From contig NZ_CP067140.1 in NCBI RefSeq assembly GCF_028553805.1, forward strand, positions 1,302,001 to 1,366,000: 64,000 bases of DNA, in the 5' to 3' direction. The translations under genes were made by a program, and so were the position numbers. This document shows positions 41,479 through 54,001 of the stretch, in pieces; the stretch's first letter is position 1, and every line of letters starts with the position of its first letter. Under the pieces are notes generated by a model, which did not search any database, was not told the origin of the DNA, and saw only the letters and a list, made by a program, of their open reading frames with translations. Source of the DNA: Paracoccus saliphilus (GTDB lineage: Bacteria; Pseudomonadota; Alphaproteobacteria; Rhodobacterales; Rhodobacteraceae).

Positions 41479-42240
41479 ATGATGCCGAAAATCCACTTCA
41501 CCGCCAGCCAGGCCGATATCGCGCGCGAGGCGCTGGCCAGCCTCTCAGAGCGATATGGTTGCGCCGATGCGGATGACGCCGATCTGGTCGTGGCGCTTGG
41601 CGGAGACGGCTTCATGCTGCAGACGCTGCATGCCATGGAAGGGCGTGCCCTGCCGGTCTACGGGATGAACCGGGGTACAGTCGGGTTCCTGATGAACGCC
41701 TATAGCATGGACGATCTGCCGCGCAGGCTTGCCGAGGCCGAGGAAACGATCATCAACCCGCTGCGGATGAGCGCCACCTGCCAGGACGGATCGCTGCACG
41801 AGGCGCTGGCCATCAACGAGGTCAGCCTGCTGCGCGAAGGTCCGCAAGCCGCCAAGCTGCGCATCCATGTGGACGGCAAGAAACGCATGGATGAACTGGT
41901 CTGCGACGGCGCGCTGGTCTCGACCCCGGCCGGGTCCACCGCCTATAACTATTCCGCGCATGGCCCGATCTTACCCATAGATTCCGAAGTGTTGGCCCTG
42001 ACGGCCATCGCGCCTTTCCGGCCCCGCCGCTGGCGGGGGGCGCTCTTGCCGAAGGATGCGCAGGTCGAGATCGAGGTGCTGAACCCCGAACGCCGCCCGG
42101 TCATGGCCGATGCCGATTCGGGTTCGATCCGGCATGTGACGCGGGTGCATATCCACAGCGCCGCCGAGATCTCGCACCGGCTGCTGTTCGACCGGGGGCA
42201 CGGGCTGGAGGAACGGCTGATCCGCGAGCAATTCGTCTAG
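41479..42240 (+). CDS. nadK: NAD kinase
   Basis: 253-residue NAD kinase making NADP. The GGDG motif is in LVVALGGDGFMLQTLH (about residues 38-53), the diacylglycerol-kinase-like YGMNRGTVGFLMN follows, then LAINEVSLLRE and VSTPAGSTAYNYSAHGPIL (about 155-173). Short, alphaproteobacterial-type form. It is divergent from glyA and convergent with the amidase gene; the gap beyond its stop holds the composite repeat. Confidence 0.95.
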   Translation: MMPKIHFTASQADIAREALASLSERYGCADADDADLVVALGGDGFMLQTLHAMEGRALPVYGMNRGTVGFLMNAYSMDDLPRRLAEAEETIINPLRMSATCQDGSLHEALAINEVSLLREGPQAAKLRIHVDGKKRMDELVCDGALVSTPAGSTAYNYSAHGPILPIDSEVLALTAIAPFRPRRWRGALLPKDAQVEIEVLNPERRPVMADADSGSIRHVTRVHIHSAAEISHRLLFDRGHGLEERLIREQFV

Positions 42241-42295
42241 GGCCTCATGCAACGGCACCGTGCGCCGCATCTGCACCATCCGCAACAGGGACGCG

Positions 42296-42320
42296 ATCCA
42301 GCCAGCAAATGCTGGATTTT
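42296..42320 (+). terminator. Hairpin plus T-run after nadK, part of repeat A1
   Basis: Perfect 7-bp stem ATCCAGC / GCTGGAT with an 8-base loop, followed by TTTTCG. The matching place in A2 (50821-50841) has ACCCA / TGGGT and TTTTCG, with one compensatory T-A to C-G change. Confidence 0.6.
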
Positions 42321-42323
42321 CGC

Positions 42324-42367
42324 CCGCACAGCGCGTACACAACCTGTACACCGCCCGCACACCGGCA
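42324..42367. repeat. 11-bp phased array, four units
   Basis: GTRCACA-like units start at 42324 (CCGCACA), 42335 (GTACACA), 42346 (GTACACC) and 42357 (GCACACC), each exactly 11 bp after the last. Eleven bases is about one helical turn, so all units face the same side of the DNA. Confidence 0.65.
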
Positions 42368-42524
42368 GCCTGCATTACGCAGCTTCGAGGGTGATTTTAC
42401 GCGTCGAGGCGCAGGAGACGGGTTCCATTTCAAGCACAATCTTTCGACAACGCGCCTGATTATTTCCATAATGGAATAAGTGATCATCGACAGAATCCCG
42501 GCCAGGCGGGAAAACCCGGACCTG

Positions 42525-42597
42525 TCTCTTCTTCTTCATGCAAATATCCCCGGGGGACCGGGGGGCAGGCAGCCCCCCGGCCAGCGCGGGACGCAAG
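42525..42597 (+). repeat. Interspersed repeat (copy 4) with hairpin
   Basis: TCTTCTTCTTCATGCAAATA followed by TCCCCGGGGG, a GGGGGG-CAGGCAG-CCCCCC arm pair, and the terminal block GGCC-GCGCGGGACGCAAGG shared with copies 1 and 5. It ends 12 bp before the amidase stop. Confidence 0.7.
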
Positions 42598-42608
42598 GAA
42601 CCACCCGG

Positions 42609-48962: not shown

Positions 48963-50017
48963 CCCCGCTAGCCGAGATCATCGCGCAGCGCATCCGGGCC
49001 ACCGGGCCGATCACGCTGGCTGATTACATGGAGCTTTGCCTGCTCCATCCCCGCTATGGTTACTACGCTACCCGCGATCCTTTCGGACAGGCCGGGGATT
49101 TCACTACCGCGCCGGAAATCTCGCAGATTTTCGGAGAGTTATGCGGTCTTGCTCTTGCACAAACCTGGATGGATCAGGGCCGCCCTGCGCCCTTCACGCT
49201 GGCCGAGCCGGGGCCGGGGCGCGGCACGCTGATGGCGGATATGCTGCGGGCCATGCGGGCCGTGCCGGGGATGTTCAAAGCCGCCGATGTCACGCTGATC
49301 GAGGCTTCACCGCATCTGCGCGGCGTGCAGAGTGAGAATCTTGGCGATGTCCGGCATCTCGACGGGATCGAGGAATTGCCGGATAAGCCCCTGTTCATGA
49401 TGGCAAACGAGTTTTTCGATGCTTTACCGGTCCGGCAGTTCCAGCGGGTCGAGGAAGGTTGGGCCGAGCGCGTCGTCGGTCTGGACAAGGACGGGTTGCG
49501 TATGGGACTGGCCCCGCCGGTCGATCTGCCGCGCGCGGGGCGGATCGGCGATATCGTCGAGGATTGCTCTGCCGCTGTCGCCATCATCGAGGCGATAGCG
49601 GGGCGGATCGCGGCGCGTGGCGGGGCGGCGATCATCGTCGATTACGGCGGCTGGAACGGTTATGGCGACACCTTTCAGGCGCTGCGTGCGCATGCGCCCG
49701 AGGACCCGTTGGCCCATCCCGGCGAGGCCGATCTTACCGCGCATGTCGATTTCGCGCCTTTGGCCGCCGCCGCGATCCGGGCCGGGGCAGAGGTGTCGCG
49801 GCCGCTGCATCAGGGCGATTGGCTGTTGTCGCTTGGGGCCGAGGCACGGGCACGGCGGCTGGCGGATGCCGGCGACGCGGGCGCGATGGATGCGCTTCGG
49901 CGCTTGACCCGCCCGGATGAAATGGGTCACCTGTTCAAGGCGATGGCCATCTGGCCGAAAGGGGCGCTGCCGGTGCCCGGATTTGACGCGCTGAGGCATC
50001 ATGCAGACGACGCTTGA
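48959..50017 (+). CDS. SAM-dependent methyltransferase, MidA/NDUFAF7 family
   Basis: 352-residue class I methyltransferase of COG1565, whose mitochondrial member NDUFAF7 dimethylates an arginine of complex I subunit NDUFS2. Features: [41 protein letters not shown] (residues 21-61, with the SAM-fold start), [32 protein letters not shown] (about 141-156) and LSWL-like [12 protein letters not shown] complex I role is plausible since Paracoccus-type complex I is mitochondrion-like, but unproven. Overlaps lgt by 4 bases and the next gene by 17. Confidence 0.88.
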
Positions 50018-50765
50018 GATCCTGACAAACCCGTTGCTTGCCGATGTAAGGCACGGTTTTTTCACGCGAAAGGGCGGGGCTTCCTCGGGGCTTTTCGCGG
50101 GGCTGAATTGTGGACGCGGCAGCAGCGATCAAGGCGACATGGTCTCGCTGAACCGGGCAAGAGTCGCCGAGGCGATGGGCGTGCCGGCGAATGGGCTGGC
50201 CACGGTCAAGCAGGTGCATTCGGCGGATGTGGTCACACTGAACGACGGCGATGACTTGGAAAAGATCAGCGAAATCAAGGCGGATGGGCTGGTCACCATG
50301 CGGCGTGGCGTGGCGCTTGCGGTGTTGACCGCGGATTGCCAGCCGATCCTTCTGGCCGATGCGGAGGCCGGAATCGTCGGGGCATGTCACGCGGGATGGC
50401 GTGGCGCACTGGGCGGCATCATCGAGGCGACGGTCGAGGCGATGCGGGCGCTTGGGGCACAGGACATCCGGGCAGTGATCGGGCCGACGATCAGCCAGCG
50501 CGCCTACGAAGTCGGCGAGGATTTCATGGAGGACTTCCTTCTCGAAGATCCTGATCATACGAGGTTTTTCAGCGGTGGCCCGAATGGCCACCCGATGTTC
50601 GATCTGCCGTCTTTCGGCCTGTCGCGGCTGCGTGGGGCGGGCGTCGAGGCGGAATGGTCCGGGCATTGCACCTATTCCGATCCCGAGCGTTTCTTCAGCT
50701 ATCGCCGCTCCACGCATGAGGGGCAGGTGGATTACGGACGGTTGATCTCGGTCATCACGCTATAA
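50001..50765 (+). CDS. pgeF: Polyphenol oxidase / purine nucleoside phosphorylase family protein (YfiH/PgeF-like)
   Basis: 254-residue member of the YfiH/LACC1 family, described both as a multicopper-oxidase-like protein and as a peptidoglycan editing factor with purine nucleoside phosphorylase activity. Zinc/copper-site motifs: GFFTRKGGASSGLFAGLNCG (about 14-33), VKQVHSADVV (about 70, His), LTADCQPILLAD (about 110, Cys) and GACHAGWRGALGG (about 127, His). Last gene of the lgt run; the gap after it holds composite repeat A2. Confidence 0.9.
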   Translation: MQTTLEILTNPLLADVRHGFFTRKGGASSGLFAGLNCGRGSSDQGDMVSLNRARVAEAMGVPANGLATVKQVHSADVVTLNDGDDLEKISEIKADGLVTMRRGVALAVLTADCQPILLADAEAGIVGACHAGWRGALGGIIEATVEAMRALGAQDIRAVIGPTISQRAYEVGEDFMEDFLLEDPDHTRFFSGGPNGHPMFDLPSFGLSRLRGAGVEAEWSGHCTYSDPERFFSYRRSTHEGQVDYGRLISVITL

Positions 50766-50820
50766 GTTGCAACGCCTGCGTGCGCTGCATCTGTCACCCC
50801 ACGCAACGCGGATGCGTTTC

Positions 50821-50841
50821 ACCCAACAAATGCTGGGTTTT
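50821..50841 (+). terminator. Hairpin plus T-run after pgeF, part of repeat A2
   Basis: 5-bp stem ACCCA / TGGGT with an 8-base loop, then TTTTCG. Same position in the repeat as the stronger hairpin at 42296. Confidence 0.5.
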
Positions 50842-50844
50842 CGT

Positions 50845-50899
50845 CTGCACAACCCGTGCACCGCGCGTGCACAACCTGTACACAGGGCGTACACAGGGC
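50845..50899. repeat. 11-bp phased array, five units
   Basis: Units start at 50845 (CTGCACA), 50856 (GTGCACC), 50867 (GTGCACA), 50878 (GTACACA) and 50889 (GTACACA), each exactly 11 bp apart. Spacer bases are mostly ACC, GCGC or GGGC. Confidence 0.7.
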
Positions 50900-51043
50900 T
50901 ACGAAACTTGGCGATGGGTTCGACGGTGATTTCGCGTATCAAGGCGCGGGGACAGATTCCATTCGCTGGATGATCTTTCTGATATGCGGCTAATTGCTTT
51001 CCTATCGGAATGGATGATCGCGCAGGCAAAACCTGAACCCGCT

Positions 51044-51150
51044 TCCTCTTCTTCTTTGGGAAAAATACCTCGGGATCGCCGGTTGGTGCGCCACTGGTTC
51101 GAGAGACCTGCCGGCGACGGGGCGGAGCCCCCGGCCATCGCGGGACGCAA
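51044..51150 (+). repeat. Interspersed repeat, long form (copy 5)
   Basis: Starts CTTCCTCTTCTTCTTTGGG and AAAAATACCTCGGG, a degenerate head, then the GCCACTGGTTCGAGAGACC to GCGGGACGCAA block nearly identical to 24171-24231. It ends 17 bp before the tyrS stop. Confidence 0.7.
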
Positions 51151-51167: not shown

Positions 51168-52415
51168 TCAGCCGACCCGCACCATCCGGTGTTTCTTCTT
51201 GCCGACCGATACCTTCAGCCCATCGCCGATCAACGCCGCATCGACCGGTAGTTGCGGATCGTTCACGGCGTCGTTGTTCAAGCGCAAGCCGCCCTCGGCG
51301 ATCAGGCGCTTGGCCTCCTTGCCGCTGGCGGTGATGCCGGTCTGGACCAGCATCTGCACCACCGTCAGCCCGTCGCTCAGCGCATTCGACGGCAGCAGGG
51401 CCACCTCCAGGTCGCCGCCTGCGCCGCCTTGCTCGAACACTTCGCGCGCGGTCGCTTCGGCGCTTGCCGCGGCCTCGGCGCCATGCAGCAGGGTGGTCAC
51501 CTCGTTGGCCAGCCGCACTTTCGCCTCGTTGATCTCGGATCCCTCCAGCGCGCCCATCCGTTCGCATTCGGCGACCGGCAACTCGGTGTAGAGCTTCAGG
51601 AAGCGGCCCACATCGGCATCGGTGGTATTGCGCCAGAACTGCCAGAAATCATAGGCCGACAGCATCTCGCCGTTCAGCCAGACCGCGCCGCCCTGCGATT
51701 TGCCCATCTTGCGCCCGTCGCTGGTGGTCAGCAAGGGCGAGGTCAGCCCCCAGATGGTCGCATCATCGACACGACGGGTCAGGTCGATCCCGTTGACGAT
51801 ATTGCCCCATTGATCCGAGCCGCCCATCTGCAGGCTGCAATCGTAACGCCGATGCAGCTCGAGGAAATCATAGGCCTGCAGGATCATGTAGTTGAATTCG
51901 AGGAAGGACAGCGATTGCTCGCGATCCAGCCGCGATTTCACCGATTCGAAGGACAGCATCCGGTTGACGCTGAAATGCCGGCCGATATCGCGCAGGAATT
52001 CCAGGTAGTTCAGCCCGTCGAGCCATTCGGCATTGTTCAGCATCATCGCGCCGCCATCCTCGCGGTAATCGAGATAGCGGGCAAAGACCTTCTGCATTCC
52101 GTCGATATTGGCCTGGATCGCGGCTTGGTCCAGAAGCGGACGCTCGTCGGAGCGGAAGGAGGGATCGCCGACCTTGGTCGTTCCGCCGCCCATCAGCGTG
52201 ATCGGGCGGTTGCCGGTCTTCTGGAACCAGCGCAGCATCATCACGTTCAGCAGATGCCCGACATGCAGGCTGGCCGCCGTCGCGTCATAGCCGATATAGG
52301 CGGTGACCGACCCGGCCAGCAGTGCCTTGTCCAGCCCTTCGTAATCCGTGCAATCGGCCAGATAGCCGCGCTCGAGCATGATTTGCAGGAAATCGGATTT
52401 CGGCTGGTAGGTCAT
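51168..52415 (-). CDS. tyrS: Tyrosyl-tRNA synthetase
   Basis: 415-residue class I aminoacyl-tRNA synthetase. HIGH-like motif in [15 protein letters not shown] (about residue 45-59), tyrosine-binding YIGYDATA and [23 protein letters not shown]-like [16 protein letters not shown] (about 229-244), and a C-terminal S4 domain ([21 protein letters not shown]). Start at 52415 ([13 protein letters not shown]); the frame continues upstream antisense to anmK. Divergent from anmK with 57 bp between. Confidence 0.97.
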
Positions 52416-52472
52416 GGGCTGTTTCCTCTTGTGCGGGGCGGATATACCGGCTGAGAAGGCAAAGGAAAAGGC

Positions 52473-53573
52473 ATGATGATCCGAGCTTTGGGAATGATGT
52501 CGGGCACCTCGCTTGACGGGGTGGACGCGGCGGTGATCGAAACCGACGGGGTTCGTATCGGTGGTTTCGGCCGCAGCGCTTTCCGCGCCTATTCGGATAA
52601 CGAGGCGGCGGCGCTGCACGCGGCGCTCGGGCGCTGGCCGGGCGAGGAAGGCGTGGCGGATGCCGCAGAGATTTCCGTGGCCAGCCATGCGGCCCTGGCG
52701 GAAGGTTTCCCCGAGGCAGAGCTGATCGGTTATCACGGCCAGACGCTTGCGCATGATCCGCAGGGGCGCGGCACCCATCAGGCCGGGGACGGGGCGGCGC
52801 TGGCGCGTGTGTCGGATCGCCCGGTTGTCTGGGATTTCCGTAGCGAGGATGTCAGGCAGGGCGGCGAGGGCGCACCGCTTGCCCCGTTCTTTCACTGGGC
52901 CTGTGCCGAATGGGCGGTCAGGGAGGGGAAGCTGCCCCCTGCGCCGGTGGCCTTCCTGAACCTTGGCGGGGTGGGCAATATCACCTGGGTGGATACCGCG
53001 TCAGCGGCGCCCGAAGCCCCCGGTGCCTGTGTCGCTTTCGATACCGGCCCGGCGAATGCGCCGATCAATGACCTGATGCGCGCGCGCCGCAGGCAGGCCA
53101 GAGACGAGGGCGGCGCGCTGGCCGCCTCTGGCAAAGCGGATCAAGGCATCGTCGCCGAATTTCTGCGGCACCCCTATTTCGATCGTCCCCCGCCCAAATC
53201 GCTGGACCGGGACCAGTTCACCGGGCTGAGCGACGCGGTGGCATCTTTGCCAGATGCCGATGCGGCGGCCACCCTGGTCGCGGCGCTGGCGGGATCGGTC
53301 GCAGCGGGAATGCGCTGGCTGCCCTCGATGCCGACCGTTCTGATGGTCTGCGGCGGTGGGCGGCATAACGGCACCATCATGCAGGCGCTCGGCACGGCCA
53401 TCGCGGCCGATGTGCGCCCGGTCGAGTCGGCGGGACTGGATGGTGACATGCTCGAGGCGCAGGCTTTCGGATGGCTGGCGGTGCGCGTGCAGCGGGGCCT
53501 GCCGATATCGGGACCAATGACCACCGGCGTGCCCGCACCGGTCTGCGGCGGACGGATCAGCCATCCGCGTTAG
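52473..53573 (+). CDS. anmK: Anhydro-N-acetylmuramic acid kinase
   Basis: 366-residue sugar kinase that opens and phosphorylates 1,6-anhydro-MurNAc during cell-wall recycling. Motifs: [20 protein letters not shown] (residues 7-26), [24 protein letters not shown] (about 89), [14 protein letters not shown] (about 155-168), [17 protein letters not shown] (about 178-194) and the C-terminal [14 protein letters not shown]. Two consecutive ATG codons at 52473 and 52476 are possible starts. A strong terminator follows at 53704. Confidence 0.95.
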
Positions 53574-53820: not shown

Positions 53821-53897
53821 GCGGTTGTAGCTCAGTTGGTTAGAGTGCCGGCCTGTCACGCCGGAGGTCGCGGGTTCGAGCCCCGTCAACCGCGCCA
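53821..53897 (+). tRNA. tRNA-Asp (GTC), first copy
   Basis: 77 bases including encoded CCA. Acceptor GCGGTTG / CAACCGC, D-arm with AGTTGGTTA, anticodon stem CCGGC/GCCGG around loop CTGTCAC (anticodon GTC), T-loop TTCGAGC. All arms pair perfectly. Confidence 0.97.
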
Positions 53898-53924: not shown

Positions 53925-54001
53925 GCGGTTGTAGCTCAGTTGGTTAGAGTGCCGGCCTGTCACGCCGGAGGTCGCGGGTTCGAGCCCCGTCAACCGCGCC
54001 A
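53925..54001 (+). tRNA. tRNA-Asp (GTC), second identical copy
   Basis: Identical in all 77 bases to the copy at 53821, separated by 27 bases. Probably one transcript processed into two tRNAs. Confidence 0.97.

Follow-up and report, generated by a model that had tools for sequence, protein, structure and literature searches.

The window analysed here comprises 64,000 nucleotides of the Paracoccus saliphilus genome (contig NZ_CP067140.1, positions 1,302,001 to 1,366,000) and carries, downstream of the pgeF gene, an array of hexamers repeated every 11 bp, which belongs to a longer element dispersed along the chromosome. Sequence comparison suggests, with a probability of roughly three in four, that this array is a phased row of about five binding sites for a chromosome-wide orphan ribbon-helix-helix (RHH) protein of family PF14384. 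The sites are about one helical turn apart and hence would lie on one face of the DNA; RHH dimers may insert the beta-ribbon at each GTRCAC, and neighbouring sites are probably bound cooperatively.

50845..50899, + strand: five-unit 11-bp phased array (CTGCAC, GTGCAC, GTGCAC, GTACAC and GTACAC at 11-bp steps), read from the sequence

The five units that the initial annotation had placed at 50845 (CTGCACAACCC), 50856 (GTGCACCGCGC), 50867 (GTGCACAACCT), 50878 and 50889 (both GTACACAGGGC) were all found, at exact 11-bp steps; the opening unit is CTGCAC, not GTRCAC, and the other four are GTGCAC or GTACAC. On the + strand of the window GTRCAC occurs eight times in 64 kb, and six of these occurrences fall, at 11-bp steps, within this array and another one at 42324-42367 (units CCGCACAGCGC, GTACACAACCT, GTACACCGCCC and GCACACCGGCA). 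Both arrays are parts of one longer element. The pattern STRCAC(N5 STRCAC)x2 has 147 matches in the whole genome (overlaps counted apart) versus 0 for the reversed control, and chance is therefore excluded as the origin of the arrays.

The candidate protein emerged from clustering of the open reading frames (ORFs) beside 207 array loci, in which families common to several genera were sought and one recurrent neighbour family was found. It occurs in eight genomes, three of Paracoccus (in one of them, G029, as a fragment only) and five of other genera, and consists of small proteins whose genes follow the array and read in its direction. A tblastn search with the P. saliphilus protein confirmed seven of the eight and added G149, where the gene also lies downstream of the array and is co-directional with it; seven of eight distinct RHH relatives form alignment A2. 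The genome of G029, 84% complete, has 22 element copies, with the RHH gene fragment beside its array. The P. saliphilus protein (175 aa, C1:675.8-676.3 kb, outside the window) belongs to Pfam family PF14384, BrnA_antitoxin (52.7 bits against a cut-off of 26.1, E=5.5e-14), and its relatives are named 'BrnA antitoxin family protein' by NCBI. It thus shares its domain with BrnA of the BrnTA toxin-antitoxin modules, in which a toxin gene lies beside brnA, but differs in that no toxin domain was detected in the 10 ORFs around its gene, the only domains found there being Hint_2 and BrnA_antitoxin. PADLOC found nothing, and a sequence search of the PDB with the RHH profile gave no match. The AlphaFold monomer model (mean predicted local distance difference test score, pLDDT, 75.8; predicted template modelling score, pTM, 0.46) places an extended segment at residues 54-62 and helices at 63-71 and 76-97, which is the order expected of RHH proteins. 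A five-unit array stands in the promoter of this gene itself, and this arrangement, with about five repeats stepping by 11 bp ahead of the gene for the DNA-binding protein, is that of sites of the ParMRC/StbA type. Because the same array is present there, the RHH protein probably controls its own synthesis.

Array and protein tend to occur in the same genomes. Within the genus, the protein (profile E<=1e-40) is present in 44 of 125 genomes, three of them with internal stops, and at least one copy of the element is found in 48 (model R1, described below, at E<=1e-6; 25 candidates were scored per genome, so that a count of 25 means at least 25). Both are present in 33 genomes, the element only in 15, the RHH protein only in 11 and neither in 66 (p=6.8e-10, kinship being ignored in this and the next two tests); when at least five copies are required, the corresponding numbers are 30, 6, 14 and 75 (p=1.3e-12). 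The genomes with the element only carry fewer copies (p=1.6e-4). In a set of 394 family genomes, nearly one per genus, the GTRCAC pattern was found in 28, of which 17 have at least 10 matches (overlapping and palindromic ones counted apart), and the control pattern gave three single matches. With the protein sought at E<=1e-15 among at most nine candidates per genome, this set divides into 21 genomes with both, 7 with the array only, 79 with the protein only and 287 with neither (p=1.4e-8).

The promoter array is not always GTRCAC, as was seen from reading 59 upstream regions of RHH genes. A blind search of these regions for four 6-mers at a step of 10, 11 or 12, scored out of 24, gave at least 21 in 41 of 59, namely 39 at step 11, one at step 12 (G259) and a spurious one at step 10, while none of 100 controls, made by shuffling the bases of 20 of the regions, scored above 20. 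By eye, 53 operators were classed, 39 of them scoring at least 21: 41 are GTRCAC, five ATGCAS, four GTATGG, and GTCTGG, GTCTTG and GTCTTC are represented by one each; G380, G360, G455, G506, G259 and G299, with an unclear array or a 12-bp step, are left out of the residue table. Residue 56 (P. saliphilus numbering) is R in 47/47 operators whose last base is C or S and K in the 6/6 with G there, five of these six scoring at least 21. Residue 58 is N in both operators with T as the fifth base and T in the other 51/51, and residue 60 is R in 41/41 GTRCAC operators, A, S, G or M in 5/5 ATGCAS ones and mixed in GTATGG. Since alternate ribbon residues of RHH proteins face DNA bases, direct recognition would be expected to produce such an agreement between residues and motif. 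A protein that binds the motif of its own promoter should have this motif at dispersed places of its genome too. In 200 kb from each of four genomes with another promoter motif, away from the RHH gene, two 4-unit GTATGG arrays were found in G300 and one GTATGGAAACC array in G204, and no GTRCAC arrays were present in the total of 800 kb. The tested motifs gave one weak match at a step other than 11, GTATGG at 12 in G520, and unrelated repeats of step 12 and 13 turned up in G346 when repeated 6-mers were counted blindly.

The element that carries the arrays was characterised from 40 P. saliphilus copies, read and aligned, 32 of which form alignment A1 and served to build the sequence-only model R1. 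It is about 147 bp long and comprises, in this order, the dyad GCAAC-N10-GTTGC, CGCGCAACA, the hairpin CCCAGCAAATGCTGGG, TTTTCGG or AATCCGG, the array of five units, the first being CTGCACAACCC or CTGTGACATCC, and GCGTGCGTTGCGCGG. In the window its parts and neighbours are as follows.

50769..50899, + strand: element copy at genome position 1352769 (R1 2.0e-28, model positions 1-129 of 146)
50769..50788, + strand: 5' dyad of the element, GCAAC-N10-GCTGC (consensus GCAAC-N10-GTTGC), 3 nt past the pgeF stop codon
50822..50837, + strand: hairpin of the element, CCCAACAAATGCTGGG here (consensus CCCAGCAAATGCTGGG), followed by TTTTCG
42249..42379, + strand: second element copy in the window (R1 5.6e-19), with hairpin 42302-42315 and the 4-unit array 42324-42367
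50001..50765, + strand: pgeF, upstream of the array (name taken from the initial annotation)
51168..52895, - strand: longest ORF of the convergent downstream gene (tyrS in the initial annotation), the true start being inside the ORF

The R1 match of the copy behind pgeF stops at 50897, and the customary 3' end GCGTGCGTTGCGCGG is degenerate there. The other copy starts 8 nt past the stop codon of gene 41479-42240, which presumably encodes NAD kinase.

Two further repeated features accompany the elements. A further dispersed repeat (CTTCTTCTT, AAATATCC or a similar sequence, a G-run/C-run and GCCATCGCGGGACGCAA) lies at 51040-51150 and 42520-42600 of the window; it trails many element copies and occurs in relatives also at loci without an intact array. 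An AT-rich hairpin, CCAGTACGAAAAACATACTGG-like or TTCCATTT...GGAAT-like, is found at 50950-51010 and 42430-42475, and downstream of the array at many other loci of the same genome. It also occurs at loci of P. methylarcula and P. alkanivorans that have no intact array.

At E<=1e-16, R1 recognises 70 copies, including the 32 used to build it; every one is on the 4.38-Mb replicon C1, and the second contig, C2, has none. Ten weaker matches are not counted, nine being antisense echoes of these copies. Of the 70 copies, 68 cover 130 or more of the 146 model positions, and the mean column identity among the 32 aligned ones is 75%. Successive perfect GTRCAC units are 11 bp apart in 189 cases and 22 bp apart in two among these copies, and in 126 and 14 cases, respectively, among 57 copies of other Paracoccus genomes; a spacing of 10 or 12 bp was seen in neither set, and the remaining five distances are at least 51 bp. 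These copies were picked with R1, which allows insertions and deletions, and the selection could favour regular arrays. The longest chain has four or five units in 63 of the 70 copies, three in five and six in two, under a rule that often leaves out the degenerate first unit. The initial annotation had asked whether the number of units varies from genome to genome; an expectation of such variation is not supported, the number being nearly fixed at about five, and a few copies lack one or two whole units. A minisatellite of variable unit number was rejected on this ground.

It is a serious but unlikely alternative that the element is a mobile intergenic repeat, resembling a miniature inverted-repeat transposable element (MITE) or a repetitive extragenic palindromic (REP) sequence, with the array as its minisatellite-like inner part and a secondary link to RHH, either by recruitment of a host protein or because the element carries the sites of a host regulator. 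Its spread is patchy (48/125 genus genomes with R1, 28/394 family genomes with the pattern), the spacers, judged by eye, are similar within one genome and different between genomes, and an array may even stand inside the bioD coding sequence (10/29 loci, by eye). An analogue has been published, BrickBuilt of Porphyromonas gingivalis, which the abstract of that paper presents as a MITE with a minisatellite inside (PMC4596501). GCAAC and GTTGC ends are seen, and orthologous loci of a sister species show remnants or no trace. In contrast, the nearly complete length of 68 of the 70 copies in spite of their divergence, the nearly fixed unit number, the recurrence of positions across genera (lpd in five genera; thiolase in the source genome and four others) and the agreement of the motif with the RHH residues are all unfavourable to this explanation. 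BrickBuilt is likewise a dispersed intergenic element holding a tandem repeat, but its repeat is of 23 nt and has no spacers, and the abstract names no DNA-binding protein (PMC4596501). In BLAST searches the element had no match in plasmids and one match, of 21 bases, in phages. A separate family of solo 5' dyads was not found in the P. saliphilus genome, matches with at most one mismatch coinciding with element copies or their antisense. The dyad and hairpin may reflect a mobile carrier of the array.

In 80 loci of other Rhodobacteraceae genera, the array alone is common to them and the rest of the element is not. These arrays have three to six units (two mismatches allowed), often with GTGACATGC at the opening, and some positions recur: beside lpd in five genera, beside thiolase in P. 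saliphilus and four other genomes, two of them Paracoccus, and at the 3' end of gltD in three (these gene names are presumed from the sequence). Loci L151-L179 were not included in the gap reading. In G149 several arrays have no 5' part of the element, and among 29 readable rows from 30 bioD loci the array lies inside the coding sequence in 10, with varying degeneracy. Because of these two observations, the array would appear to be the working core, which speaks against a pure role in the 3' untranslated region (3'-UTR). In about ten Paracoccus genomes (L301, L292, L305-L312 and others) the reading frame is kept open through the bioD array, as a linker of variable length.

At the pgeF locus itself, read by eye in 20 named Paracoccus, the full array is present only in P. 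albicereus; the P. saliphilus locus among those 20 has a one-unit relic, P. methylarcula has a remnant with an internal deletion, and the other 17 are without any array. Such absence from the pgeF gaps of relatives, which the initial annotation had named as evidence against its claim, is thus real at this locus. We would explain this by loss of arrays in lineages without the RHH protein, and the array is constrained where it is kept, despite its absence at most pgeF loci. P. methylarcula (presumably G018), which has no full-length RHH protein, shows no intact element and eight remnants, by eye, at 22 orthologous gene ends (21 of 27 rows plus pgeF). Across 14 orthologous pairs from other Paracoccus genomes, the unit cores are 90% identical, the spacers 62% and the aligned downstream flanks 69%. 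The initial annotation had argued for selection on phasing and against recent copying, and this holds in so far as the step is kept (11 or 22 bp, never 10 or 12) and the copies, with cores so much better conserved than spacers, are not recent.

Several results weigh against an RHH-bound array. The P. methylarcula loci were chosen because the P. saliphilus genome has an element there, and P. methylarcula holds seven copies of its own, one of which sits at a locus where P. saliphilus also has one. In G019, G014 and G029 the spacers are no more alike in orthologous pairs (0.60) than in 383 non-orthologous ones (0.59). In the close pair G006 and G149 the divergence of the array, judged by eye, exceeds that of its flanks. 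Both results can be explained by saturation or by exchange between copies. As for the protein, comparison of its monomer model (pTM 0.46) with PDB folds gave no RHH match. Operators were sorted into motif classes by eye; 14 of the 53 score below 21, including degenerate GTRCAC arrays and G458, and the rarer classes hold one to five genomes. In the dispersal test G346 gave one 3-unit match of its mixed motif, for which there is no matched control, and G520 had none of its motif dispersed in 200 kb, so that dispersal of the own motif is clear in two, weak in one and absent in one of the four genomes. G112 has 23 elements, G083 nine copies and G404 11 array matches, all three with no RHH match; the 11 genus genomes with the protein and no R1 element are the reverse case, of which at least G044 uses another motif. 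None of the associations between array and protein is corrected for phylogeny.

The positions of the 70 copies relative to genes, called with our own codon-score script, are informative for two other explanations. The largest class lies between convergent genes (34), followed by copies in sense (20) and antisense (10) orientation to co-directional genes; four are between divergent genes, and two were scored inside an ORF, one of these being the RHH promoter, whose array is traversed by the called ORF. Arrays as ordinary transcription-factor operators, with the RHH regulon formed by the adjoining genes, would agree with the array in the RHH promoter, with the arrays that recur in other genera next to lpd, thiolase and ttcA genes and with the gene start found on at least one side of 34 of the 70 copies (classes ++, -- and -+). 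As a full account it is nevertheless doubtful, as a position between convergent genes, which 34 of the 70 copies have, is not expected to hold a promoter. A second explanation, which we consider quite improbable, is a transcribed 3'-UTR element, in which the hairpin with its T-run is a terminator and the 11-nt repeats are a platform for RNA-protein or RNA-RNA contacts. Where a sense gene lies upstream (54 copies), the element starts within 50 nt of its stop codon in 39 cases (median 22 nt); several copies have paired changes in the hairpin (by eye), and complementary changes link the spacers of units 3 and 4 (A1 columns 110-125). The last feature, with G-C in 11 and C-G in 10 of the 32 copies at columns 113-123, is not explained by the RHH model. 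However, 10 of the 70 copies are antisense to co-directional genes and four lie between divergent ones, arrays in other genera stand upstream of gene starts and inside bioD, the hairpin was not seen in 20 loci of other genera, and RNAalifold predicted no pair with both sides changed. An RNA family was rejected as well, the RNAalifold result being weak and the element region having no Rfam match (two tRNAs were the only matches in the window).

Along C1 the elements are otherwise spaced as at random, apart from a largest gap of 444 kb (p=0.04); in the stretches covered, the GC skew switches sign near 0 and near 2 Mb, with no clear relation of the sites to these points. A bias of the sites to the origin or terminus was rejected accordingly. 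It is very improbable that the arrays are DnaA-like or replication-initiator iterons dispersed on the chromosome. The unit TGTGCACAA is one base off the complement of the DnaA box, TGTGNATAA, and GTRCAC arrays of 11-bp step occur on 22 viral contigs, a few of them, in our impression, inside ORFs resembling replication proteins. Yet DnaA is universal whereas the arrays have a patchy distribution, GTATGG or GTCTTC takes the place of the motif in other genomes, and control patterns occur on 9, 14, 6 and 9 viral contigs, which leaves a small excess; viral arrays were therefore dropped as a claim. The viral contigs with GTRCAC arrays (L335-L356, IMG/VR) differ widely in base composition.

For an array bound by the RHH protein there are several partial precedents. 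ParR of plasmid R1 has an RHH fold, and the unit of its parC site is 11 bp. Two sets of five repeats in parC are described in one publication (PMC4949242); five sites about one turn apart are likewise found here, but the R1 system is a plasmid partition locus with a ParM filament, in contrast to many chromosomal arrays. The stbDRs of plasmid R388 are described as two sets of five 9-bp repeats with 2-nt gaps, i.e. an 11-bp step, in the stbABC promoter region, other promoters having two or three copies (PMC3098194). StbA and its stbDRs therefore resemble the RHH promoter in having five repeats at this step in the promoter region of the protein's own gene, and differ in being plasmid-borne and in the motif, TTGCATCAT. 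CdbA of Myxococcus xanthus is an RHH protein with many chromosomal sites that bends DNA and matters for nucleoid organisation, recognising a direct repeat with halves one helical turn apart (PMC7156744). The likeness would be the chromosome-wide use of an RHH protein, here seen only in the distribution of sites (70 copies on C1 and none on C2); CdbA has a two-copy repeat and 569 chromatin immunoprecipitation (ChIP) peaks (PMC7156744), as against arrays of about five sites at some 70 places.

The role of the RHH protein in the cell can only be guessed. An architectural or gene-end function, as a nucleoid-associated protein, is favoured over classical promoter control on account of two counts among the 70 copies: 34 have convergent genes on either side, and 39 begin no more than 50 nt from a stop codon. 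With half of the sites at places not expected to hold a promoter, we lean towards such an architectural role, but regulation of neighbouring genes retains some probability. More tentatively, and with somewhat less than an even chance of being right, the data may point to an undescribed chromosome-organising system of Rhodobacteraceae, in which an antitoxin-derived RHH protein would occupy dozens of phased multi-site clamps at gene ends around the chromosome, lineage dialects would co-evolve via three ribbon residues, and array sets would be rewritten or lost together. The literature searched, which left out most subscription journals, gave no description of these arrays or of the role of this protein. 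The proposed binding would give a candidate function both to an orphan BrnA-family protein, full length in 44/125 genus genomes, and to a repeat family that resembles junk. It would also offer a readable RHH recognition code and a natural data set on changes of specificity, which a DNA-binding protein seems to have made several times, the chromosomal sites following; the prediction of motif, loci and genome is directly testable.

Two tandem tRNA genes with equal Rfam scores are located at 53821-53894 and 53925-53998 of the window.
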